64,000 nt of DNA, taken from assembly GCA_025782575.1 (NCBI GenBank), contig JALGYY010000035.1:270670-334669 (forward strand), read 5' to 3'. The stretch comes from a bacterium. GTDB taxonomy: Bacteria > Orphanbacterota > Orphanbacteria > Orphanbacterales > Orphanbacteraceae. The notes below the pieces were generated by a model. The model was not told where the DNA came from. It made no database searches and saw only the letters and a list, made by a program, of their open reading frames with translations. Of the stretch, positions 25,181 through 50,307 are shown piece by piece. Position numbers and translations under genes: made by a program. Within the stretch, counting starts at the first letter, position 1. Every line of letters starts with the position of its first letter.

Positions 25181-25711
25181 TTAACGATTTTCAATTCCCC
25201 ACCACTTAAAGCCGATCCGGGGGTCATCGAAGGGGAGACGAAATTCGTCGTCCGGGTTATAGGTTCGATCCGTGTAATAGATCATAGTCAGATCGTCGCC
25301 GGGAAGCACTTCATACCCGTGCGCCACGCCTGCCGGGATCCGAATCGCCCTCTGATAAAGCTCACCGGCGAATACGGAATTCGCAACTCCGAATGTAGCC
25401 GAGTCCGAACGAAGATCGACAAGCGCGACCCTGACCGTCCCCAGAAGCGGCAGAAATATGTCATCCTGCTCCAGATGGTAGTGAAAGGCCTTGATCACAC
25501 CGGCCCTTGTTCGCGTAAGTGAAGTCTGCTGAAATTCGAATCCGGCAGCAATCGGGTCATCTTTGCGAAACACTTCTGCGAAATGCCCGCGATCATCAGG
25601 AATGACGTTTAATTCCCGGACGACCACCCCTTCGATGCTGCCTGGTACAACTCCGCCACCCACGACCACGTGTTCCTTGATCTGTGTCAATTCGACTCGC
25701 TGGCTCTTCAT
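25181..25711 (-). CDS. rfbC: dTDP-4-dehydrorhamnose 3,5-epimerase-like cupin
   Basis: A 176-residue RmlC-type cupin with GVVVRELNVIPDDRGHFAEV, FQQTSLTRTRAGVIKAFHYH (catalytic His region), LVDLRSDSATFG, RIPAGVAHGYEVL and a C-terminal DPRIGFKWWGIENR. It epimerises dTDP-4-keto-6-deoxyglucose at C3 and C5 on the rhamnose path. The usual catalytic Tyr context is only partly recognisable, so a related dTDP-sugar epimerase is possible. The ATG at 25711 has AGGAGT 4-5 nt upstream. It is the first gene of the - strand operon; the rest of the rhamnose set (rfbA, rfbB) is separated from it by two methionine genes, and rfbD is not seen. Confidence 0.82.
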   Translation of the reverse strand: MKSQRVELTQIKEHVVVGGGVVPGSIEGVVVRELNVIPDDRGHFAEVFRKDDPIAAGFEFQQTSLTRTRAGVIKAFHYHLEQDDIFLPLLGTVRVALVDLRSDSATFGVANSVFAGELYQRAIRIPAGVAHGYEVLPGDDLTMIYYTDRTYNPDDEFRLPFDDPRIGFKWWGIENR

Positions 25712-25810
25712 GGGTACTCCTGATCCCGGATAGCGGCGCTGCTTTCCGGACGATCGAGACATTAAAAGGATCGGCCCCGTCCGACCGAACCGTAGGTCAC
25801 TCAGGAGAGA

Positions 25811-25898: not shown

Positions 25899-25927
25899 TT
25901 GACGAAACCAGAGTTATCTGCTAAGAT
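25899..25927 (+). promoter_or_regulatory. Sigma70-type promoter for the surface-polysaccharide operon
   Basis: TTGACG (25899-25904), a 17 nt spacer and TAAGAT (25922-25927), with an extended -10 TGC immediately before TAAGAT. The predicted start is near 25934, giving a leader of about 290 nt before the first gene (GTG at 26224). It is divergent from the rfbC promoter, so a regulator binding between them could control both nucleotide-sugar supply and polymer assembly. Confidence 0.75.
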
Positions 25928-25931
25928 CCAT

Positions 25932-25960
25932 TCCGGATTCGGGGCAATTCCCCGACCGGA
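25932..25960 (+). promoter_or_regulatory. 5'-leader hairpin at the polysaccharide operon transcript start
   Basis: TCCGG (25932-25936) pairs with CCGGA (25956-25960) and CGGGG (25940-25944) with CCCCG (25950-25954), leaving a small internal loop and a CAATT loop. It lies at the predicted +1 and has no T-tract after it, so it is more likely an mRNA-stability or regulatory stem than a terminator. Confidence 0.55.
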
Positions 25961-26027
25961 GTTCTTCCCCCGCAAAACCTTGTTCAGGAGTATGCCTGAG
26001 AATTCTTTGCTAAAGAGTGCTCGACAA

Positions 26028-26059
26028 ATCGTTCGATCTCCGTGATAACGGGGGACGAT
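26028..26059 (+). promoter_or_regulatory. Leader stem-loop of unknown function
   Basis: ATCGT (26028-26032) can pair with ACGAT (26055-26059), enclosing an inner stem CCGT (26040-26043)/ACGG (26048-26051) with a GATA loop. The internal loop of 7 and 3 nt is large, so the fold is uncertain. It lies between the promoter and the terminator-like element and could take part in an antitermination switch. Confidence 0.3.
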
Positions 26060-26158
26060 ACGGGCTCACATAGGTGCGCTGCCCATTATATACAGGGCTA
26101 CCGCACTCGTCGATTCTCTTTAGCGCGGCCAATGGGCGACAGGTATCCAGTGGTTCAT

Positions 26159-26191
26159 CCGGGATCGCGCACGGCGCGGCCCGGTTTTTTT
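26159..26191 (+). terminator. Intrinsic terminator in the leader (candidate attenuator)
   Basis: CCGGG (26159-26163) pairs with CCCGG (26180-26184) and CGCGC (26166-26170) with GCGCG (26174-26178), with a 3-nt ACG loop and a small interruption (AT opposite G). The stem is followed at once by seven T residues (26185-26191). This is a textbook Rho-independent terminator. It lies about 225 nt downstream of the predicted transcription start and 32 nt before the GTG start of the first polysaccharide gene, so transcription must pass through it. Confidence 0.75.
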
Positions 26192-26223
26192 GCGCCCGGC
26201 AGGAGGCGTCGGCGGAGGCCGCG

Positions 26224-26850
26224 GTGATCAGGAATGGAAAAGAGGGCCGGATCTACCCGGTCGGGAAGCGGGGGCTGGACGTCATGATTTCCGGAGTGCT
26301 CCTGATCCTGTTCATCCCCCTGTTCGGGATGATCTCCGTGGCAATCCTGGTCGACTCCAGAGGGGGGGCGTTTTTCCGGCAGATCCGTGTGGGAAAAAAT
26401 GGAAAATTGTTCAACTTTTATAAGTTTCGGTCGATGATTCGGAATGCGGAGATGCTCCGTAAGACGTTGAGAAATCAGAATGAAGCGGAAGAGCCGCTCT
26501 TCAAGATCCGGCGTGATCCCAGAATCACCCGGGTCGGACGATTTCTTCGCGCTACGAGCTTGGATGAGTTGCCGCAATTCTGGAATGTACTTCGCGGTGA
26601 CCTCAGCCTCGTAGGGCCTAGGCCTCACCTTCCGGAAGAGGTCAAAGCCTACAGTGAGGCTCAGCAGGAAAGGCTGTCGGTCAAGCCAGGTATCACGTGC
26701 CGATGGCAGGCGGAAAACCGCTCGTCCACAAAGTTCGATGAGTGGATCGAGTCTGATCTGGAGTACATCCGGAACCGTTCTTTCCGGGCTGATCTCGCAA
26801 TTTTGTATCGGACCTTTTACACGGTCCTGACTCGGAGGAATGCCGTTTGA
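26224..26850 (+). CDS. Initiating sugar-phosphate transferase (polyprenyl-phosphate glycosyl-1-phosphate transferase, short monotopic type)
   Basis: A 208-residue catalytic-domain-only PGT that transfers a sugar-1-phosphate to undecaprenyl phosphate, starting repeat-unit synthesis. There is one hydrophobic re-entrant helix (about 15-40), then [39 protein letters not shown] (catalytic DE-type pair region) and SLVGPRP. The usual GITGLWQ segment reads [13 protein letters not shown], an unusual variant. The GTG at 26224 has GGAGG 6 nt upstream. The frame continues open to 26074 but that extension crosses the terminator and lacks similarity. A second PGT lies at 43380. Confidence 0.88.
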
Positions 26851-27722: not shown

Positions 27723-29135
27723 ATGGTCGCTGATCACATGGAGAATCAGGCTTCTTTCAATGATGCTTTGTCGCGGGATACGGCGCAGCTCACCGGGAGA
27801 GACATCTTCAAGGTGCTCTTCCGCCGGAAGTGGATCATTCTGATCTTGTTCCTGTCTACGTCGCTGTTTGTCATTCTGAAAGCGAGCAGCATCCCGACCG
27901 AATACAGTGCGACCGCCCAGGTGTTGATCAATCGTGGGCAACGGAAGAGCGCACTCGACCGGAACGTCTCTCTTCTCACCTGGGACGAAACCGTAGCGAC
28001 CGAACTTCAGATCGCGGAAAGCCGGCCTGTGATTCGGGCGGCACAGGCGATGCTCGTGGAAGAGGCTGAAGAAAACGGGACGGAACCGATCGAGATTGAG
28101 ACAAAGGGAGTGCGGTCCAAGCTTCTGGGAGAGTCAAACGTGGTGGGGCTCCAGTACACGTCGCTGATCGAATCCGAAGCGCCGCCAGTGGCAAACGCAC
28201 TTGCCCAAGCCTACATCGACTATCATAAAAAACTGTTTGCCCTCCCGGATGCTACGTCCTTCTTTGCCGAACGTGTTATCGAGGCAGAAGCGAATCTCAA
28301 GGATCTGACGCTCCGTCGGCAGCAGATCAAGGAAGAAGGAGGGGTGGGCCGTCTGAGCACACAACAGGATCAACTCCTCCACCAGATTCGCGTAATTCGA
28401 GAGACGATGGTCAGGGAGGGCCAGGAATTCGCCGGTCTCGAGGCTGAGGTCATTCAAGCCCGGAAACTGTTTTTTCAGGATGGCGTGGATGTTCCATTCG
28501 ACACACGTCGATTCGAGGACAACATCGGTGCCCTCCACGTTCTGTACAGACATAAAGACGCACTGGTCAATCTCCGCCGGGATCGGGATGAGCTTCTCAC
28601 CCTTTACACGGAGCAACATCCCCTGGCCATCGCCATCGATGAGAGGATTGTGTTCGTCGAGAGCGAAATGCATAGTGAGGCTGAACAGTTGATCCGGGTG
28701 AAAGAGAGAAACTTGGAAGTGAAGCGAGCCGAGTTGAACTCTCTCCGAGACCGCCTGGCGGAACGGAATCTGGAGCTGCGCACCATGCCGGGAATCGAGA
28801 GAGCAATCATGAATCTCGATCGCTCCATCGAGCTGGCGAGCGACGCCTACTCCGAACTTCTCGATAATCAGGTACGCATTCAGGTTTCCGAGGTCGCTTC
28901 CAGAGACTTCACGCTCTCGCTCCTTTCTGAGGCGGGAATGCCTGACGCCACAGATCCGCGCGATCCGATTCGCCTGGCGCTTGTGCCGGCGTTCAGCTTG
29001 CTGCTCGGAATCAGCCTCGCCTTCTTCGTGGAGACGATGGATCACTCTCTGAAGAGCAGAGAGGATGTGGAGCGCTATATCGGACTTTCCGTGCTTGCGT
29101 CCATTCCCCATCGCAAGAAAGCGCTGACCAGCTGA
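27723..29135 (+). CDS. Polysaccharide chain-length determinant / co-polymerase (Wzz-GNVR type)
   Basis: A 470-residue inner-membrane protein. A cytoplasmic N terminus is followed by a transmembrane helix at about 37-57 (WIILILFLSTSLFVIL). A long periplasmic, largely coiled-coil region spans about 180-370. The GNVR-like segment (FTLSLLSEAGMPDATDPRDP) and a second helix near 420-440 come next, then a short basic tail. It lacks the fused kinase domain; the adjacent gene encodes a separate ATPase, as in split Wzc systems. It controls polymer length and couples the periplasmic and outer-membrane export parts. Confidence 0.87.
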   Translation: MVADHMENQASFNDALSRDTAQLTGRDIFKVLFRRKWIILILFLSTSLFVILKASSIPTEYSATAQVLINRGQRKSALDRNVSLLTWDETVATELQIAESRPVIRAAQAMLVEEAEENGTEPIEIETKGVRSKLLGESNVVGLQYTSLIESEAPPVANALAQAYIDYHKKLFALPDATSFFAERVIEAEANLKDLTLRRQQIKEEGGVGRLSTQQDQLLHQIRVIRETMVREGQEFAGLEAEVIQARKLFFQDGVDVPFDTRRFEDNIGALHVLYRHKDALVNLRRDRDELLTLYTEQHPLAIAIDERIVFVESEMHSEAEQLIRVKERNLEVKRAELNSLRDRLAERNLELRTMPGIERAIMNLDRSIELASDAYSELLDNQVRIQVSEVASRDFTLSLLSEAGMPDATDPRDPIRLALVPAFSLLLGISLAFFVETMDHSLKSREDVERYIGLSVLASIPHRKKALTS

Positions 29136-29929: not shown

Positions 29930-31171
29930 ATGGGTGCGCTGACCGATCCGATCACATTCAGAACTTCGGCGGATGAGACAACGGACGCGTATTACCGGTC
30001 CGTTCTGAACCGCCTCATGCCGGCATTGTTACACGAGACGGGTGGTGAGGGAACAGCGACCCTCATTTTGAGCGGCAGTCTCGCTTTGGGGGAAGGCCGT
30101 TCTTTCTTTCTGGGAGAGGGACGAACTGAACCGGGAAGTGACATTGATCTATACGTTGTCGTAGAAGATGACCGTGTAGAGAAGTTGCAGACCGATCGAG
30201 CATCGATCATTGAACGCGTCCGCCAGGCGGCGGATGCGGATGACATAGTGATCGACATCGGGTTTACGTCGAAGCCGGTCCTCGATCAGCTGGAACCGAC
30301 GATCATGAACTGCAATCTGTTGCACCACGGCAGAGTACTGCACGGCGATCCCTCCGTTCTGGCCGGACGAGAGAATTGTCCCTTTGAGGCAATCCCGGCG
30401 TGGGACGGTTTCGTCCTGTTGCTGAACCGGGCCGCCGAGGAGATTTCCGAACTCAGGCTCAGGCCTGAAGGAGAGCAGGAGGCGCGGGCCAGCTGGTACA
30501 GAACGGGAAAGACGATTCGCGATCTCGGGACGAGCGCCCTGGTCGTGGCCGGCCGGTACCACCCCATACTTGCCGAGCGGAAAGAAAGAGTTCGCCTGCT
30601 TGTCGAGCAGGAGGGGTTGGAAAGCAGGGCCGTCGGTTTTCTGGACGACTTTTCGTTCTGGAGTGATTCGAAGTCTGCGTCTGAACCGGGCAGCCTCCCA
30701 GGTAACGGTCCCGAGCACTTCCGGCAGGCCATGCAAAAGAAGAGCCTGTATGTCGGCGCATTCTGGGAGTGGGAATCAGCGCTGTTCTTTACGGACTGCC
30801 GCGAGCCCCGTGGAGAGACACTCCGCCGCCGGGTCCGGCGATGGCTCGAGTATGTAGCGGAGAATCGCGAAGGCAGTTGGCGATCAGCGGCGAGGCAAGC
30901 GCTGCGAGGATTTCCCGCGACCCCGATCATCGCGAACTCGATGGCGGCCGTACTGCTGCTTCTCTGCTGGACCCCTCTGACAGGGGACGAGCCGACCGCC
31001 GAGGACCGTAAACGTCTTGCAGAAGCGCATGCGCTCACGCCGGCGTCAAGGGGGGTAGGCGGATCTGACTATGCGACGTCGTGGATCGCGCTTCGGAACG
31101 ATGTTTGTGCATTCTGGAACCGGGAAGTGATGGGTGGGACAAGACCCGCACTTGCCCTGGAGCAATTGTGA
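29930..31171 (+). CDS. Nucleotidyltransferase-superfamily protein of unknown function
   Basis: A 413-residue protein whose N-terminal third carries the polymerase-beta-type nucleotidyltransferase core: GS at 49-50 within LSGSLALGEG, then DID (Asp71, Asp73) in GSDIDLYVVV and a likely third acidic residue Asp108 in VIDIG. The GS and DxD are separated by a longer insertion than usual. The C-terminal part is helical and unrecognised. Relatives transfer nucleotides to small molecules, proteins or RNA; the substrate here is unknown. It overlaps the following phosphodiesterase-like gene (GTGA). A role in polysaccharide or lipid-linked-sugar modification is only inferred from position. Confidence 0.6.
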   Translation: MGALTDPITFRTSADETTDAYYRSVLNRLMPALLHETGGEGTATLILSGSLALGEGRSFFLGEGRTEPGSDIDLYVVVEDDRVEKLQTDRASIIERVRQAADADDIVIDIGFTSKPVLDQLEPTIMNCNLLHHGRVLHGDPSVLAGRENCPFEAIPAWDGFVLLLNRAAEEISELRLRPEGEQEARASWYRTGKTIRDLGTSALVVAGRYHPILAERKERVRLLVEQEGLESRAVGFLDDFSFWSDSKSASEPGSLPGNGPEHFRQAMQKKSLYVGAFWEWESALFFTDCREPRGETLRRRVRRWLEYVAENREGSWRSAARQALRGFPATPIIANSMAAVLLLLCWTPLTGDEPTAEDRKRLAEAHALTPASRGVGGSDYATSWIALRNDVCAFWNREVMGGTRPALALEQL

Positions 31172-32337
31172 AACGACTGACACTCGCCGTGCTGATTGAC
31201 GCGTTCGGCCATGATCTTCTGCAGGAACATGAGTTTCTGCCGGAGTTGGCCGACAGGCGTCCGCTTCGCACTGTTCTCGGCTTCAGTTCGGCAGCCATCC
31301 CCACACTTCTTACGGGCCGGTGGCCGGACGAACATGGGCGTTGGTTTCTCTACCGGCGCGCCCCCGAAAGCAGCCCTTTCGGTTTCGCCCGCTATCTCGC
31401 CCCCTTCGAAAAGGTACCTGTTCTCGGACGACGGGTACGAAGAGTCTTCGAAGATTCATTCGCGGTTCAATGTCCCCTCACGGAGTACTACCACCTCTAT
31501 GGAATTCCGCTCCGCCATCTCCCTCAATTCGATCTTCCAGGGAGAAGATCAATCTACGGGACTCACGCGATCGACGGCGTCGAGAACCTGTTCGATCGTC
31601 TTGAATCGAAGAGGATTCCCCATCGTATCTGGACATGGTCGACTCCGGAAGAGGAGAACTTCCGCAGTCTCGTTGATACGGTTAAACAGGGCGACCACTC
31701 GTTTCTTTTTCTTTATGCGCCCGTTCTTGACGGCGTGATGCACGGAACAGGGACGCAGTCAGACGAGACGGCTGATACCATGCGGCGGAACGAAGAGGGA
31801 ATCCGCGAGGCCGTGCGCGCGGCTCGTCGTAGCTACGACGAAGTGGTGCTATACGTTTTTTCTGACCATGGGATGGTGGACACGCAACGGGTGATCGATG
31901 TAATGGGCCGTATCCGCGCTCTGCCGTTCCGTGAAGGAGAGGACTACCTGCCGTTTTATGATTCAACATTCGCACGGTTCTGGTTCTTCGACAAACAGGC
32001 GGAGAAGGCGATCCTCACCGAGCTGGTCACGATTGACGGCGGCCGTCTACTGAACGAAGACGATCTACGCAAGCAGCACGTCTGGTACCCGAACGGTGAT
32101 TACGGCAACGCTATCTATCTGGCCGATGCAGGGACTGTGATTGCGCCATCTTTCATGGGCGAGAAAGCTCCGCTCGCCATGCACGGCTACCACCCGGACG
32201 ACAAAGGGTCGAGCGGTATGCTCCTCGCGAGCCGGGAAGTAGCCCCCGAAGTCCGTGGCATCGTCGATATGGCAGCCTTCCTCGAGGGGGAGGCCGGCTG
32301 GGCCTATCAGGGAGAGAAGCATGGGGCGATTTCGTGA
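31168..32337 (+). CDS. Alkaline-phosphatase-superfamily (type I phosphodiesterase/nucleotide pyrophosphatase-like) protein
   Basis: A 389-residue protein with the metal-binding start LAVLIDAFGHD (Asp11), a nucleophile-region segment GFSSAAIPTLLTGRWPDEHG (about 38-57) and FSDHGMVDT (about 231-239), all typical of the AlkP/NPP superfamily. No signal peptide or membrane helix is obvious, so it may be cytoplasmic. The GTG at 31168 overlaps the previous stop; the longer in-frame start at 31081 is inside the nucleotidyltransferase gene. Substrate unknown. It overlaps the flippase gene. Confidence 0.75.
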   Translation: MKRLTLAVLIDAFGHDLLQEHEFLPELADRRPLRTVLGFSSAAIPTLLTGRWPDEHGRWFLYRRAPESSPFGFARYLAPFEKVPVLGRRVRRVFEDSFAVQCPLTEYYHLYGIPLRHLPQFDLPGRRSIYGTHAIDGVENLFDRLESKRIPHRIWTWSTPEEENFRSLVDTVKQGDHSFLFLYAPVLDGVMHGTGTQSDETADTMRRNEEGIREAVRAARRSYDEVVLYVFSDHGMVDTQRVIDVMGRIRALPFREGEDYLPFYDSTFARFWFFDKQAEKAILTELVTIDGGRLLNEDDLRKQHVWYPNGDYGNAIYLADAGTVIAPSFMGEKAPLAMHGYHPDDKGSSGMLLASREVAPEVRGIVDMAAFLEGEAGWAYQGEKHGAIS

Positions 32338-34547: not shown

Positions 34548-36959
34548 ATGCGCAGTCATCTCCCGTTCCTAGCCGCCTGGCTCCTGGCGGCCGGAATTGC
34601 ACTTTCCCATCATGCCGGCCTGCCGGTCAGTGGGGAGGTCCGAACCGGCGGTGCACTCGCTTTTCTTCTCCTGCTGCCGGGCTATAGGGCAGCGACCATG
34701 ATTGCCCCTTCGCTGGGCGTGACATTTCGAATCGCACTCGGGTTCGGTCTGGCTCATGGGTGGCTGGCCGCCCTGGCCGTCATTTGTCATTTAACCGGGC
34801 TATCGCTCGGCTCTTTTCTTGTAGCGGCCATACTCGTCTCGGCAGGGACATTTCTTCTGCCCGCACGATCGGGAGGTGCTCTCTCCGAATGGAAGGATCT
34901 TGTCCTGATCGCTCTCTGCTGGATCGTTCTTCTGTCCGTCCAATCACCGCGAAACGGTTTCTGGACCGACGTCTACGATCACATCGGCACAGTGCGTTGG
35001 ATGCAAGAGCGGAATCAGGCCTATCCGCGAGAAGCGTTCCACGCCGATAGAATGGACGAACTCGACCCCAGAAAGGGGACGGCCCATTCGCTTTTCGCAG
35101 CGGCCACGCGGCTATCCGGCGTTGATCCGCTTGACGGCTGGTCCTCTCTCGGTGCGGCCCAGCTCCTCGTACTCCTCTCCGCCATTCACGCGCTCGCCCG
35201 ATCGATCTTCCCCCGCCCCGGAACCGCCTGGATCGGTTTCATGCTTTTCGCGCTCCTCTTCCGCGGCGGTCCGGGGGGAGAGTGGTTCCGTTCGGCCGCA
35301 TACCCCGGGATAGCAGGATACAGCCTATTTCTGCTCGTAGCCGCCCTCGGGGTTCGGACAGCGACCCGAGGGGAAACCGGCCGGGCTGCGGTCCCTGTTC
35401 TTCTCGGGCTGGCCGCAGGGGGGATCCACATCTTCTATGGGACACTTGCGGGGGGAGCGCTCGTCACGCTGTTCATCGGAATGCTTTTCGCTCCCGGGTT
35501 GCGGCCTAACTCCCATCACCTGAGAAAACTTCTTGCACTCTTCCTGATCGGCGCGGCCCCCCTCTTTCTCTTTCGCATGATCGCCTCATACGACCCCGCC
35601 AATCCCCTCCATCTCCACAGGCAGGGTATGCTACTGCTCCCATTCGGTCTGTCTATTCTCGATCACCGGACTCTGGCAGGAACCTTTGGACTCGCCGGAG
35701 GCGTCGCTTTTCTTCTCCTTCCATTCTTGAAGCCTGCGGATCGCCCTTTTTCCGCCGGCGAGCTGTTTCTTCTCGCCACGTCGATTGCCACAGTTCTTGT
35801 TGTTCTGAATCCACTGCTGTTTCCTTTATTGGAGAGAAAGCTCGGATATCTGATGAGGCGAGTGCCCAGCTTCTCACTCGGCCCGTTCGTACTACTGGCC
35901 GTAATGGCCGGACCGTTTCAGTCAGGCCGGCGATTGAGGACGGTCGCCCCCGCGGCTCTGGCGGCGCTCGCCGCTCTCTTTTCGATCGGATCATCAGTGG
36001 CCGAGGCTTCTCGCGGAAACAGACTGCCCATGGGAACTGTTGAGGATCAGCAAGTGATCGAACGGGCGGTGGACCTTCTTGGCGAAAGCCTCCCGGTCGG
36101 TTCAACCGTAGTGACCGATCCCGTGACCGGGTACGCTCTCTTCGGCCGTACGCTCCTTCATCCGGCAGCTGTGGTCGATCAACATTCATCGCCGAACGAC
36201 CCGGATGGAGCGAGTCGAGTCGCCGATACGCAGCGCCTCTTTCGTGATCGATGTTCTGAACTCGAAATGGGAGAAATTCTCGAAGAACTCGGTGCCGACT
36301 TTGTGGTGGTTAACATGCTGTTTCCCTGTGGATTCCGTTCCTTCAACGCCTACGTCCTTCCCGAGCTCTTTGATTCGGCCGCCACCCGCATGGACCGACT
36401 CCCGCTACTGTTAGAGCCGATCGCTTCACCCGAAGGATTACGGGTCTACCGTGTAAGGGACGAGTCACTTTCCCGCCCGGAGCCGGCCCATGACTTGAGT
36501 CGCGATCCGCTCTTCGAGCCGCTCGGGCCTATTCTGGACCGGGAAATGGAGGGAGGGACGCTTCTCGTTGCCGGAAGGGTCGGAGTGGAGGTCCTTCGCG
36601 CGGGAGAGCTAATGGAGCTCGTCACGTGGTGGTCTCTTCCGGAACAGGACGCCGGGCCGCTGCCGATGAGCCTGTTCGTCCGGGCTCGCCCGGCGGATGG
36701 GAGCGGACAAGCCGGCAGACCATGGTCCATCTCGGTTCTCGGCGGTCTCGAGTATCCCTATGTGATCTGGAGGGCGAATGACCGGGTCGTTGACCGACAC
36801 TCCATACGGGTTCCCGCTCGTGTCAAACCGGGTCGATACTTAATAGAGGTGACCCTCGACCCCGCGCGCTTCTTCCCTGTCAGCCGCATCTCGGGCTTGA
36901 GACGGGGGGCGATTCGATCGGGTTGGACGGTCATCGATACGCTGGAGATCCGATCGTGA
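34548..36959 (+). CDS. Large multi-spanning membrane protein, GT-C-like (paralogue 1)
   Basis: An 803-residue protein with roughly 13-15 N-terminal hydrophobic segments (to about residue 490) and a soluble C-terminal part. It carries WTDVYDHIG near residue 141, TDPVTGYALFG near 523 and QHSSPNDPDGASR just after. The same three motifs occur in the 846-residue protein at 38488, so they are paralogues. Layout (acidic pair after the first helices, many helices, soluble tail) is that of GT-C glycosyltransferases which use lipid-phosphate sugars. No catalytic assignment is proven. The neighbouring GT2 could make its lipid donor. Confidence 0.6.
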   Translation: MRSHLPFLAAWLLAAGIALSHHAGLPVSGEVRTGGALAFLLLLPGYRAATMIAPSLGVTFRIALGFGLAHGWLAALAVICHLTGLSLGSFLVAAILVSAGTFLLPARSGGALSEWKDLVLIALCWIVLLSVQSPRNGFWTDVYDHIGTVRWMQERNQAYPREAFHADRMDELDPRKGTAHSLFAAATRLSGVDPLDGWSSLGAAQLLVLLSAIHALARSIFPRPGTAWIGFMLFALLFRGGPGGEWFRSAAYPGIAGYSLFLLVAALGVRTATRGETGRAAVPVLLGLAAGGIHIFYGTLAGGALVTLFIGMLFAPGLRPNSHHLRKLLALFLIGAAPLFLFRMIASYDPANPLHLHRQGMLLLPFGLSILDHRTLAGTFGLAGGVAFLLLPFLKPADRPFSAGELFLLATSIATVLVVLNPLLFPLLERKLGYLMRRVPSFSLGPFVLLAVMAGPFQSGRRLRTVAPAALAALAALFSIGSSVAEASRGNRLPMGTVEDQQVIERAVDLLGESLPVGSTVVTDPVTGYALFGRTLLHPAAVVDQHSSPNDPDGASRVADTQRLFRDRCSELEMGEILEELGADFVVVNMLFPCGFRSFNAYVLPELFDSAATRMDRLPLLLEPIASPEGLRVYRVRDESLSRPEPAHDLSRDPLFEPLGPILDREMEGGTLLVAGRVGVEVLRAGELMELVTWWSLPEQDAGPLPMSLFVRARPADGSGQAGRPWSISVLGGLEYPYVIWRANDRVVDRHSIRVPARVKPGRYLIEVTLDPARFFPVSRISGLRRGAIRSGWTVIDTLEIRS

Positions 36960-38487: not shown

Positions 38488-41028
38488 ATGTGGGCTAGGG
38501 GAAGTTGGACCGCCCGGTTCGCCCTCGCGATCGCGGCGACCGGTATTGCTGCGGCGTTCGCCCCTGCCGTCACTCCTGATAAGTGGCGGGTCCTTGCTCT
38601 GTTGGGCGCGATCCTCTTCTGCCCTGGTTATGCGATTCTCAGAATCGTACCCCGCCTCTCTCGTGGCGACGGCGTCTCCCTGCTCGCGATGGCGTTTCCC
38701 CTATCGTGTGCGTTCTGGATCATCCCCCTCTTCGCATACCACCTGCTTGGGGGAGGGCCCGAGCTCATTCGTGGGGCGGCGATTCCGGTTCTTGCACTAT
38801 CGGCGGCAGTTTTCCTCTTCCGGTTCAGGAGTTCTCGAGAATCTCCACCGGCGCCTCTCTGGCTCCTGTTTCTGATTCTTGTACTCGTGCCGTTCACCGC
38901 CGGGCGTGGCGCATCGGTCAATATTCTGTCCGATTCGCTCGATCACATCGCCTATCTCGGCGCTATTGATGATTCATGGGTCAATTTCCCTGATACGGCC
39001 TACTATGCTGATCCGAGCGACCAGTCGTACGATATCCGCAAGGGATTTCTGCAACCCGTCCTCGCTGCGGGTGGCCGCCTCGCAGGGGCGGACGCTTCCA
39101 TGGTCTGGTCAGTTCTTCCCACACTGGTCGCGGTGTTTTTCTCGTTCTCCCTATTCGCTCTCGCGCGCGCCGCCTTCGGAACGGGCCTGGCGTCCAACGC
39201 CACTTTATTCGCAGGACTTCTGACAAACGACAGCGGTATTCTCTCGGACTGGTTTGGACGCTCCGGAATACCATTCCTGTTCACCGCTCCGGCCGTCTGG
39301 TGCGTATTCCTTCTGCTGATCCGCTCTTCGAAGTGTGATCGTAACGAGCGGGGAATACTCTTCTTTCTCGCGTTTCTATTCGGCTTTGCCGTCATGGGCA
39401 TGCACCTGTTTGCTGTGGTGGCCGGTGCCGCGCTCACATCAGTCTATCTGCTCGCTTTCGCGATTGCCCGAAGAGGGGAAGGGAGGCTGGGAGGTCCGCT
39501 CTCTGTCGGCGCAGGTTTCCTGCTGGGTGCCATTCCGATCGGCATCTGGAGATTCCTGACCAGCTACCCACCGATCGACCCGATCCATACTCACTTGCAG
39601 GGCGTAGTCTGGGTCGGGAAGGGGCTTTACTTCTCCGCTCCCCAACTGGCGCTGAACCGATTCGGTCTTCTCGGGATAGCCGCGATTCCACTCTCTCTCC
39701 TGCTCTGGAAGAAAGCGGGAAAGGAAGACGGCGCACTATTCGCGTTCTCAACGACACTGCTCCCCTACCTTATCGTTCTGAATCCGCTGCTCGTCCCTGT
39801 CCTGGCCCCCCTGTTCGGTTATCTCATCGGCAGAATCGTCTGGTACGGCGGGAACTACATGGTAATCGGCGCAGTGGTCGCTCTACTGGCACGCCACGCG
39901 AAACCGGGGTACAGCACGATGTGCCGCACAGCTTCTTTGGGCGCTCTTGCCACTATGATCATACTTTACTCGGCCTCCGCCTTCGCCGGGGACAGGCAGC
40001 GCATGTGGAAGTCACTCAGTCTCGCTCCGGCGTTCCATCAGGAAGTAATCAAGCCTGACCTGTGGAAGGATCTCTTTCACTATATGGATGAATCTCTCGA
40101 GCCAATGGCGACTGTGGCGACGGACCCGATAACCGCGTACATGATTCCGGCACTTACGAAGCAAAAGATCATCGGCTTGAGTGCGCAGCATTCCGCCCCG
40201 AGCGACCCCGATGCCCAGGCCCGTTTGAAGGACGTCGCCCTCATTCTCAGCCCTTACATTGACGGAGCGAAGACCGCCGCCATTCTGGAGAGGCGACGTG
40301 CGGACTATGTACTCCTCAATTTCCGCTACCCCCGGATCCGGACATTGTTCTACGGAGCGGTCGACCCGTCACTTTATGACGCGACGCTTCAGAAGTTCCG
40401 ATCTGAACCGGATCGATACACCGAGATATTCGGCCGGGATCGTTGTCATTTGTTCCGCCTCGAAAAGAGAGGTGACCCTGGCACGGTTCGAGAGAGCATT
40501 CTGACTGCATCGATTCAGACGCTGCCACCTGAAACGAATGAGGTCGGCCACATTTTCCCGAACGGGGTTCGGCTGGTCGCCGCCACCGTGCTGAATGATC
40601 ACGCCTCACCAGACGAAGATCTCCGGATAGTCTGCTACTGGAACAAGGCGAATGACTCGCAGGATCCTCACCCATACCGCCTCTATGTCAGGCTTGATCC
40701 GCTGGACGGCAAGGCCGTTAACGACAGCAAGTTGAGACGGAAGCTGAGAGAAGTGATCGATGGGAAACGTTACCGGGCAAGGACAGGCCGGAATCTATTG
40801 CGCGGGGCTTACCCTCCTTTCGCCTGGAATGAAGGGGAAACCGTCGCCGACACTCTGATCGTCCCGATCTCGCCGCGGCTCGCGGAGGGGAATTACCGCA
40901 TCGAGATCCTTCTCCGCCGCCACCCGCATCTCCAGACTTACGAGATCCAGGACTTCTGGAAGGAGAGGGATTCCTTCTCGGGCGTGCCTGTCGGGACCGT
41001 GGCGATAGGGGAGACCGGCCATGCATAG
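38488..41028 (+). CDS. Large multi-spanning membrane protein, GT-C-like (paralogue 2)
   Basis: An 846-residue homologue of the protein at 34548: LSDSLDHIAYLG near residue 147, ATDPITAYMIPAL near 543 and QHSAPSDPDAQAR shortly after correspond to the same positions in the paralogue. A hydrophobic N-terminal half with about 12-14 segments precedes a soluble C-terminal region of about 300 residues. Function is inferred to be sugar transfer on the outer face of the inner membrane, in the GT-C manner. The start ATG at 38488 has only a weak GGTGAG site. It overlaps the next glycosyltransferase gene by 8 nt. Confidence 0.6.
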   Translation: MWARGSWTARFALAIAATGIAAAFAPAVTPDKWRVLALLGAILFCPGYAILRIVPRLSRGDGVSLLAMAFPLSCAFWIIPLFAYHLLGGGPELIRGAAIPVLALSAAVFLFRFRSSRESPPAPLWLLFLILVLVPFTAGRGASVNILSDSLDHIAYLGAIDDSWVNFPDTAYYADPSDQSYDIRKGFLQPVLAAGGRLAGADASMVWSVLPTLVAVFFSFSLFALARAAFGTGLASNATLFAGLLTNDSGILSDWFGRSGIPFLFTAPAVWCVFLLLIRSSKCDRNERGILFFLAFLFGFAVMGMHLFAVVAGAALTSVYLLAFAIARRGEGRLGGPLSVGAGFLLGAIPIGIWRFLTSYPPIDPIHTHLQGVVWVGKGLYFSAPQLALNRFGLLGIAAIPLSLLLWKKAGKEDGALFAFSTTLLPYLIVLNPLLVPVLAPLFGYLIGRIVWYGGNYMVIGAVVALLARHAKPGYSTMCRTASLGALATMIILYSASAFAGDRQRMWKSLSLAPAFHQEVIKPDLWKDLFHYMDESLEPMATVATDPITAYMIPALTKQKIIGLSAQHSAPSDPDAQARLKDVALILSPYIDGAKTAAILERRRADYVLLNFRYPRIRTLFYGAVDPSLYDATLQKFRSEPDRYTEIFGRDRCHLFRLEKRGDPGTVRESILTASIQTLPPETNEVGHIFPNGVRLVAATVLNDHASPDEDLRIVCYWNKANDSQDPHPYRLYVRLDPLDGKAVNDSKLRRKLREVIDGKRYRARTGRNLLRGAYPPFAWNEGETVADTLIVPISPRLAEGNYRIEILLRRHPHLQTYEIQDFWKERDSFSGVPVGTVAIGETGHA

Positions 41029-48300: not shown

Positions 48301-50307
48301 ATGAAGACTCTTTTGCAATCGTTCTTGCTTTCTCTCTTTACTCTCAGTCTCCTGTTCCTGATCGTCGCCCTCGGCGTGCTGGCTCTGAATGAGAGATTCA
48401 TCGACGACCTGAAGATCGGCTGGACGATCTTTCTTGTCCTCCCTCTGGCGCTCTCGATTCCGGCGACGATTCTCGGCCTCCTCCAGGGCACGATTATGCG
48501 CGACAACCTGCAGAAGCAAGGGACGGCACTAATCGGCCTTCTCCTTTCAATCTGTCTAGCGCCGATCGCGGCGTACCTGGTTCGGACCTCCGCCGCCACG
48601 GTGTTCGAAGGATCAGGGCTTCTCATCACAGCACTTACAATCGGCGTCGCGTTCCTCGTCGTTCTCGGCGCATTCCGGATCGGATCATTGCTCGCCAGGA
48701 TCATCGGGAAAGGAGACGGTCGAGTCCGCCCGGGACTCCCGATCGCTCTGCTCATTCTTCTCGCTCTCGTCCCGCCGGTGGGGTCATGGCTATCACACCG
48801 CCCCATTCGTTTCGGCGACAAACCGTGCACAGTCATTTTTTGCATGGACGGCGCCAACTGGGCGATCATCGACAGGCTGACCTCAAAAGGCGGTCTCCCC
48901 ACGCTCACTTCTCTACAGAGAGAGGGAGTTCGTTACGATATGGAATCGATTTCCCCGCTTATGTCTCCGATTCTCTGGACGACCATTGCGAGCGGCGTTT
49001 CTTCTGATCGGCACGGCGTACACAACTTCTACGCCATGTCTTCGAACGTGAAGTCTCCCCGGCTATGGGACATGGTCGAACAGAATGGGGGAAGCGTGGG
49101 CCTGTCAGGCTGGCCGGTAACCTGGCCCCCGCGTGAAGTGAACGGCTGGCTCATTCCCTCGCTCTTTGCGAGAGGTCCCGAGACCCATCCGAAAGAACTC
49201 CAGTTCCTACGGGAACTCGCCATGCGTGAGAAGGGACAGAGAAGCCGCGATGTCGGAAGCTATCTGATCTACGGCGTGCGGGCCATTCAATACGGCGTGC
49301 GGATTTCGACACTCCGGCAAGCGGTGGATGTCATGGTGGATCCGGGAGATTTTCTGGAGTCACTGGCAGCCAAGCGTTTTCTCAAGCTCCGAATCCATAG
49401 CGATGTGTTCATGGAACTCTGGGAAAGATATCAGCCTGAATTTGTCGCGTTCTACAACAATACGCCGGACGTGATCAGCCACTATTTCTGGAAATACTAC
49501 GAACCTGAATTATTCCCGGATGTCACCGGGGATGATGCCGCGCGCTATGGGGACATGATTCCGAAGGCGTATCGTCAATACGATCACGCGATGGGCCGAA
49601 TCCTGCATTTCGCACCGGATCAGGCGAACGTCGTAGTCGTTTCGGATCACGGTCTCGAGGCGACCGAAACGCAAGGAGAGGGAACGATTCGACTGATCCT
49701 TACTGAGAAGTTGCTGCAGGTTCTCAAGATGGAGGAATCGATTCAGGGAATCAATCTCGCCTCGCGGGTCTTCCTGCGCCCCTCATCGAGCACCGTCGGA
49801 CGGGGAAGCGGCCTGCTTCGACTGTTTCAGGATACCGTGATCGAAGAGTCCGGTGAGTCGATCTTCAAGGCTCAGAATGATGAATGGGGAAATGTGATCA
49901 TAGAGGCCCTGAAAACGCCGGACCTTGAGGGCAAGCACATTCTCTTCCCCGGGGAGAAGCGAATCCCTGTAGAGGAGATCATCCAGGAGACACACGCGAA
50001 AGTCTCAGGGGAGCACAACCCCAATGCCATCCTGCTCTTCAAAGGAGAGAGGGTTCGGAGCGGGGAAAAACTGACCGGTGCGAGCATTCTCGACGTCGCG
50101 CCGACCGTTCTTTATCTCATGGGATACCCGATCGAAGAGAAGATGGAGGGACGGCTCCTCGAGTCTATCTTCATTGACGGCTACGTCCGGAATAATCGAC
50201 CTGAGTACAGAGGATATGAACTCGCCGTAACGCCTGAAGCGGGAGGGGATGACGTGGGGAACGAGAACCTGAAAGCTACGCTCAAGAGCCTCGGCTACTT
50301 CAATTGA
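48301..50307 (+). CDS. Membrane-anchored alkaline-phosphatase-superfamily protein
   Basis: A 668-residue protein with five or so N-terminal hydrophobic segments (about 1-165) followed by a phosphodiesterase-like domain. That domain has FCMDGANW (metal Asp near 183), SPILWTTIASG with probable nucleophile Thr227 (residues 222-232), NNTPDVISHYFW and VVSDHGLEATE (near 450). The domain is predicted extracytoplasmic. Relatives act on phosphate diesters or transfer phospho-groups between lipids and glycans. It is the second AlkP-type gene in the locus. A GGGAAA-type ribosome-binding site is weak. A 92-nt gap precedes it. Confidence 0.78.
   Translation: MKTLLQSFLLSLFTLSLLFLIVALGVLALNERFIDDLKIGWTIFLVLPLALSIPATILGLLQGTIMRDNLQKQGTALIGLLLSICLAPIAAYLVRTSAATVFEGSGLLITALTIGVAFLVVLGAFRIGSLLARIIGKGDGRVRPGLPIALLILLALVPPVGSWLSHRPIRFGDKPCTVIFCMDGANWAIIDRLTSKGGLPTLTSLQREGVRYDMESISPLMSPILWTTIASGVSSDRHGVHNFYAMSSNVKSPRLWDMVEQNGGSVGLSGWPVTWPPREVNGWLIPSLFARGPETHPKELQFLRELAMREKGQRSRDVGSYLIYGVRAIQYGVRISTLRQAVDVMVDPGDFLESLAAKRFLKLRIHSDVFMELWERYQPEFVAFYNNTPDVISHYFWKYYEPELFPDVTGDDAARYGDMIPKAYRQYDHAMGRILHFAPDQANVVVVSDHGLEATETQGEGTIRLILTEKLLQVLKMEESIQGINLASRVFLRPSSSTVGRGSGLLRLFQDTVIEESGESIFKAQNDEWGNVIIEALKTPDLEGKHILFPGEKRIPVEEIIQETHAKVSGEHNPNAILLFKGERVRSGEKLTGASILDVAPTVLYLMGYPIEEKMEGRLLESIFIDGYVRNNRPEYRGYELAVTPEAGGDDVGNENLKATLKSLGYFN

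Follow-up and report, generated by a model that had tools for sequence, protein, structure and literature searches.

Why does a long surface-polysaccharide operon carry an intrinsic terminator directly ahead of its first gene, and could this terminator be part of an attenuation switch? The question is raised by a 64,000-nucleotide stretch of DNA (the window) from a bacterium of the family Orphanbacteraceae, in which an exopolysaccharide operon of 18 genes and ca. 24 kb spans positions 26224-50307 of the plus strand. Pfam matches identify a short Bac_transf sugar transferase, Wza, Wzz, a tyrosine kinase, phosphodiesterase-like proteins, Wzx and glycosyltransferases as well as Wzy_C, an aminotransferase, a second Bac_transf protein and others. 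We compared the window genome (G000) with six other species of the same family belonging to four other genera (G001-G006). The operon is syntenic in all six, with the same gene order as far as the compared stretches allow, in agreement with the surface-polysaccharide operon of roughly 22-26 kb proposed in the initial annotation. Two of the operon proteins (803 and 846 amino acids, 34548-36959 and 38488-41028) have no Pfam or NCBIfam match and share ca. 40-45% identity with their counterparts in relatives. In addition, two type I phosphodiesterase-like proteins (31081-32337 and 48301-50307) are syntenic wherever the compared stretches of the relatives reach; they represent an unusual operon companion and may add a phospho group to the polymer.

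The operon is preceded by a single good promoter and a long leader. Our promoter scan of the 461 bp separating the operon from a divergent dTDP-sugar epimerase gene (25181-25762) returned one good plus-strand promoter, a sigma-70-like sequence with an extended -10 element (TTGACG-N17-TAAGAT with TG before the -10, 25899-25927, 9/12). TTGAC...TA-like promoters are found at the corresponding place in all seven orthologous leaders, supporting the promoter assigned previously. The likely transcription start is near 25934. Gene 1 begins with a GTG codon (26224-26226, plus strand) in a frame that aligns with its orthologues, preceded by the Shine-Dalgarno sequence GGAGG (26214-26218). A 5'-terminal transcript hairpin (25932-25960, plus strand) is predicted here and in all relatives; it is stronger than in shuffled sequences (about P<0.05) in two of the seven leaders only. 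The leader is present as a single copy in the window genome, and a mobile or repeated element was rejected on this basis. Another sigma-70-like promoter (TCGACG-N17-TATAAT, 26113-26085, minus strand, 10/12) lies inside the leader and is directed away from the operon. It would yield an antisense RNA over the conserved boxes described below and is separate from the likely epimerase promoter at 25839-25811.

The terminator at 26159-26191 (plus strand) is among the strongest in the window genome. Its two-part stem pairs CCGGG (26159-26163) with CCCGG (26180-26184) and CGCGC (26166-26170) with GCGCG (26174-26178) around the loop ACG (26171-26173), and the hairpin (26159-26184) is directly followed by seven T residues (26185-26191) that end 32 nt before the gene 1 start at 26224. 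The sequence thus matches the earlier description exactly, and the 32 nt downstream of the T tract are too short for a second promoter. The GC-rich hairpin with its directly adjoining U tract has the makeup of an intrinsic terminator, and its location between the promoter and the first gene of the operon is that of an attenuator. Folded in isolation, 26150-26195 reaches -21.1 kcal/mol (z = -2.0). We then counted T runs of at least five directly preceded by a hairpin in 0.86 Mb of the window genome, a set in which ca. 9 kb of window sequence is counted twice. Including the leader, six sites combine a hairpin at least as stable as that of the leader (≤ -18.7 kcal/mol) with at least seven T residues, against a mean of 0.0 in five first-order Markov simulations, indicating that the terminator is a real signal well above chance. 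Most of the other strong sites examined follow a same-strand open frame at a distance of ca. 50-190 nt, which indicates that this organism uses intrinsic terminators. In vivo, most transcripts would be expected to stop at 26159-26191. Two further sites lie within the operon: a T6 tract at 31856 follows a comparably stable hairpin with long arms (-20.8 kcal/mol) inside a coding frame and may act as an internal polarity site, and a weaker T6 site (-12.1 kcal/mol) is found at 28470.

Conservation of the terminator among relatives is poor. None of the six other leaders contains the T tract or any T run longer than four, and a terminator-like hairpin is found only in G003 (GGCCGGG...CCCGGCC followed by CTGTCATTT). 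In this leader (L116/L008) the hairpin looks homologous, a GCGCGGC repeat is located beside the helix described below and the T tract is degenerate. This distribution indicates that the terminator is specific to the window lineage or was lost elsewhere, and attenuation by it would be lineage-specific at most. The test of stem conservation suggested in the initial annotation was therefore largely failed, while the strong terminator separating gene 1 from the only good promoter, on which its proposal of an attenuation switch was founded, is upheld. Attenuation appears plausible, yet it is not carried by conservation of the terminator.

A different part of the leader, located upstream of the terminator and missed by the initial annotation, is conserved (25986-26017 together with 26116-26124). 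Its first box, AGGAG (25986-25990, plus strand), is invariant in all seven leaders, as is the TTGCTA of the second box, TTGCTAAAGAG (26007-26017, plus strand). Searched for across the seven whole genomes, the common motif AGGAG-N13-17-TTGCTA-NNG(A/G)G (25986-26017 in the window) occurs exactly once in each, and every one of these matches falls in the orthologous operon's leader. In a search of 386 genomes, exact matches outside the family (379 genomes from other phyla) are about as frequent as those of a reversed control, and the loci retrieved have no clear polysaccharide neighbors apart from one weak glycosyltransferase match of 21% identity. A sequence-model search gave only weak outside matches (best E of 8e-4 per genome in ca. 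379 genomes), none of them close to polysaccharide genes. A 32-nt DNA match to an unrelated genome gives no indication of kinship, and a scan of genome contigs for further leaders returned distant paralogues from other phyla and no added leaders. Among Rfam models, only tRNAs reach the gathering score in the window; the leader has no match at E≤5 and the leaders of the relatives have none, and a known Rfam leader RNA or riboswitch is rejected on this basis. Overall, the comparison provides modest evidence from four or five independent lineages.

The second box forms one strand of a predicted long-range helix. Helix P1 pairs 26009-26017 (GCTAAAGAG) with 26116-26124 (CTCTTTAGC, plus strand) over ca. 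100 nt, with pair probabilities of 0.97-0.98 for its 5' strand. The enclosed domain (26021-26113, plus strand) is predicted to contain a short helix P1b (26021-26025/26109-26113) and two hairpins, P2 (26029-26063) and P3 (26073-26107). Across the leaders, the complement of the TTGCTA strand is found 66 to 148 nt downstream, with the strand pairs GCTAAGGAGC/GCTCTTTAGC in G003, GCTAAAGAGC/GCTCTTTGGC in G004 and G006, and ATCGAG/CTCGAT in G002 and G005. When the downstream sequence is shuffled 200 times, only 3 to 10 shuffles reach this complementarity in six leaders; in G001 it is no better than in shuffles. Similarly, the core P1 pairs have probabilities of ca. 0.94-1.0 in the unconstrained partition functions of six leaders and of ca. 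0.68 in G001, where two A-A mismatches are present. When P1 is placed on six sequences, 87.9% of cells are paired compared with 33-50% when the helix is slid. Two pairs are changed on both sides (AU to UA and AU to CG), a covariation matched by 1 of 500 shuffles, and these changes come from one genus and represent one or two events. P1 thus appears well supported in six of the seven genomes and weak in the seventh, G001.

These data also bear on a reading in which AGGAG and TTGCTA form a linear site for a DNA- or RNA-binding protein (a roadblock, CsrA-like or other) and P1 is incidental. The invariance of both boxes in seven of seven leaders goes beyond what pairing alone needs, and their spacing is loosely fixed at 13-17 nt. 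Against this, P1 is predicted in all seven leaders with two compensated pairs, and the distance of the boxes from the inferred start site ranges from 66 to 134 nt, making a linear site improbable.

The position of P1 relative to gene 1 differs between genera. The ATG that starts gene 1 lies within the 3' strand of P1 in G002 and G005. In the remaining genera, the helix is located upstream of the start and encloses hairpins unrelated in sequence. Enclosed hairpins are thus predicted in the relatives as well, with different sequences and lengths, and no conserved sequence marks a ligand pocket.

Translation of a leader peptide is a poor explanation for the conserved region. The initial annotation had pointed out a 17-codon frame at 25992-26045, which is indeed present and adjoins the AGGAG box, and through which ribosome-mediated attenuation could be imagined. 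Its ATG is missing from the other six leaders, and the spacing between AGGAG and ATG is only 1 nt. In addition, where the aligned G004 and G006 leaders differ over this region, most changes affect the first and second positions of codons in the gene 1 frame, which suggests that the leader region is probably not translated in these species. With an unconserved start codon and a substitution pattern typical of noncoding sequence, we rejected the leader peptide, which we consider very improbable.

The 3' strand of P1 resembles boxA in several leaders (GCTCTTTAGCA and GCTCTTTGGCA in two other genera), raising the alternative of boxA-type processive antitermination, in which this strand would be the boxA for NusB/S10 and the TTGCTA strand a masking anti-boxA. 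GCTCTTTAGCA is the only GCTCTTTRRCA in the G003 genome, and the sole matches to this pattern in G006 are the two arms of P1. The rrn boxA sequences of G004 (GCTCTTTGACAA) and G003 (GTTCTTTGAAAA) share GYTCTTT with the P1 3' strand; that of G002 is GTTCTCTGAAAA. GYTCTTT is found in the P1 3' strand of three leaders, which then diverges from the rrn boxA of the same genome. The leaders of G003, G004 and G006 score 10/11, with the match breaking at the ninth base of the boxA consensus GYTCTTTAANA (PMC5725501), and none of these three leaders contains the full consensus. The window leader contains only TCTCTTTAGCG (8/11 against GCTCTTTRACA), and the leaders of G002 and G005 have nothing boxA-like although their TTGCTA box is intact. 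The 3' extension AATAGTG of the rrn boxA is also missing from the operon leader. Together, these observations make a boxA function quite unlikely. The rrn leaders themselves were located in three species of the phylum (L213 at 1501-1530 on the reverse strand, L224 near 1500 and L201 near 1370), each with its boxA followed by a common AATAGTG; full 16S genes are otherwise mostly missing from these assemblies.

A specialized elongation factor recruited at the leader could also override the terminator, and the initial annotation had named an RfaH/LoaP-like NusG paralogue as an option. Long polysaccharide operons are targets of such factors (PMC7819879), and in a leader targeted by LoaP a hairpin precedes a terminator (PMC12691694). 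We found one NusG-domain protein (a single PF02357 match) per genome in all seven genomes. In the window genome, this protein is a nusG equivalog (216.8 bits against a cut-off of 135.7), falls below the cut-offs for RfaH, LoaP and UpxY and is encoded next to rplK. Neither strand of the window contains an ops-type element (GGNGGTAGYNT), consistent with the lack of an ops/JUMPstart sequence remarked on earlier. A single canonical NusG beside rplK excludes an RfaH/LoaP factor in an assembly from which ca. 5% of the genome is absent, and recruitment of any NusG paralogue (RfaH, LoaP or UpxY) is hardly credible.

A candidate antiterminator strand is located immediately beside P1. The sequence GCGCGGCC (26123-26130, plus strand) exactly repeats 26174-26181, a segment of the terminator's 3' arm, can pair with 26161-26170 and overlaps P1 at 26123-26124. 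An 8-nt repeat of this arm is equalled in 64 of 2000 shuffles (chance of ca. 0.03). The initial annotation had anticipated an antiterminator, for which this direct repeat is a candidate; the predicted folds show no pairing between the terminator and the stems it named as possible parts (25932-25960 and 26028-26059). With P1 allowed, the fold of 25934-26191 has an energy of -100.7 kcal/mol with the terminator and -93.4 kcal/mol with the terminator forbidden. With P1 forbidden, the corresponding values are -93.0 and -92.7 kcal/mol. In silico, P1 therefore favors the terminator by ca. 7 kcal/mol, an effect of the same order as the errors of folding energies (several kcal/mol), while the two folds are equal without it. 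This suggests that, in this model, P1 would decide whether the antiterminator can compete. The terminator-like hairpin of G003 forms without dependence on P1 in the folding model. Overall, coupling between P1 and the antiterminator in the window leader is possible but falls short of an even chance.

The folding results have to be weighed against an unregulated partial terminator that arose recently in the window lineage. Such an element would lower operon expression by a fixed amount or form the end of a free-standing leader small RNA, with the conserved upstream element serving otherwise, for example in mRNA stability. The presence of the T tract in one of seven leaders, the ability of P1 and the terminator to form together in folding and the independence of the G003 hairpin from P1 all agree with this reading. 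Coupling is suggested instead by the 8-nt copy of the terminator arm adjoining P1 and by the 7 kcal/mol by which P1 favors the terminator, and a fixed terminator, if strong, would be costly ahead of a syntenic 18-gene operon. We consider a fixed terminator unlikely.

We favor a reading in which a structured RNA switch acts in cis from the leader (25934-26223), with the AGGAG box, the TTGCTA strand and helix P1 as its conserved core, and in which formation of P1 turns the operon off, by attenuation in the window genome and through translation in a sister genus; its chances seem to us about even. When formed, P1 would withdraw the strand 26123-26130, which adjoins and overlaps its 3' side, so that this strand does not trap the 5' arm of the terminator. 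The hairpin and T7 tract would then form and RNA polymerase would stop near 26191, releasing a leader RNA of ca. 258 nt. If a ligand, a protein or an RNA keeps P1 from forming or opens it, the antiterminator (26123-26130/26161-26170) could form first and the 24-kb operon would be transcribed. In the sister genus (G002 and G005), the same helix would mask the start codon of gene 1 and probably act on translation. The sign of regulation agrees between the two outputs, P1 being the off state both for attenuation in the window genome and for start-codon masking in G002 and G005. The basis of the proposed switch is provided by sequence comparison, namely the terminator signal, the conserved boxes, the complementarity of P1 with its compensation and the lack of a NusG paralogue, and from these features we infer termination in vivo, competition between P1 and the antiterminator and the existence of a trigger. 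Taken together, these findings make RNA-level switching of the operon probable. The AGGAG-TTGCTA-P1 element represents the conserved and more interesting object and is a candidate for a new leader RNA with lineage-specific outputs. More tentatively, it could define a new class of regulatory leader RNA restricted to one small phylum, in which the P1-closed domain senses a signal and controls the core exopolysaccharide operon through an interchangeable output, which would be transcription termination in one genus and masking of the start codon in another; this broader proposal is doubtful at present.

Control of long polysaccharide operons is often exerted after initiation; in the well-studied cases, NusG paralogues are responsible. 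The lineage described here possesses only one NusG, yet the leader of its 18-gene operon contains a conserved element. Should the switch prove real, it would represent an RNA-based solution to the control of long operons, with one conserved helix wired to different outputs in sister genera. The leader is also a small, tractable RNA of ca. 290 nt in which the exact pairs are defined.

The leader shares features with several known systems. Like the boxA leaders bound by NusB/S10 (rrn, suhB; PMC5725501), it contains a CTCTTT core, located in the P1 3' strand of four of the seven leaders. In contrast to these, the core deviates from the consensus and from the rrn boxA of its own genome, is missing from at least two leaders and is masked in a helix. 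The leader of the LoaP-dependent difficidin operon (PMC12691694) similarly precedes a long biosynthetic operon and consists of a leader RNA element followed by a strong intrinsic terminator, but the seven genomes contain no NusG paralogue, and non-systematic inspection of the leader revealed no matching UNCG hairpin. RfaH/ops (JUMPstart) leaders are likewise found on long surface-polysaccharide operons. Here, however, there is no RfaH homologue and no ops sequence, and the conserved element pairs as RNA. The EAR element of Bacillus eps operons, contained in Rfam, is likewise a cis RNA of an exopolysaccharide operon and may promote readthrough; neither the window nor the relatives have an Rfam match to EAR. 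Terminator/antiterminator attenuators such as trp, riboswitch and ANTAR leaders share the overall layout of a promoter, a long structured leader, a strand repeat allowing alternative pairing and a terminator just before gene 1. In contrast to these attenuators, the leader described here has no known ligand, protein or leader peptide, and it is the upstream domain rather than the terminator that is conserved in relatives.
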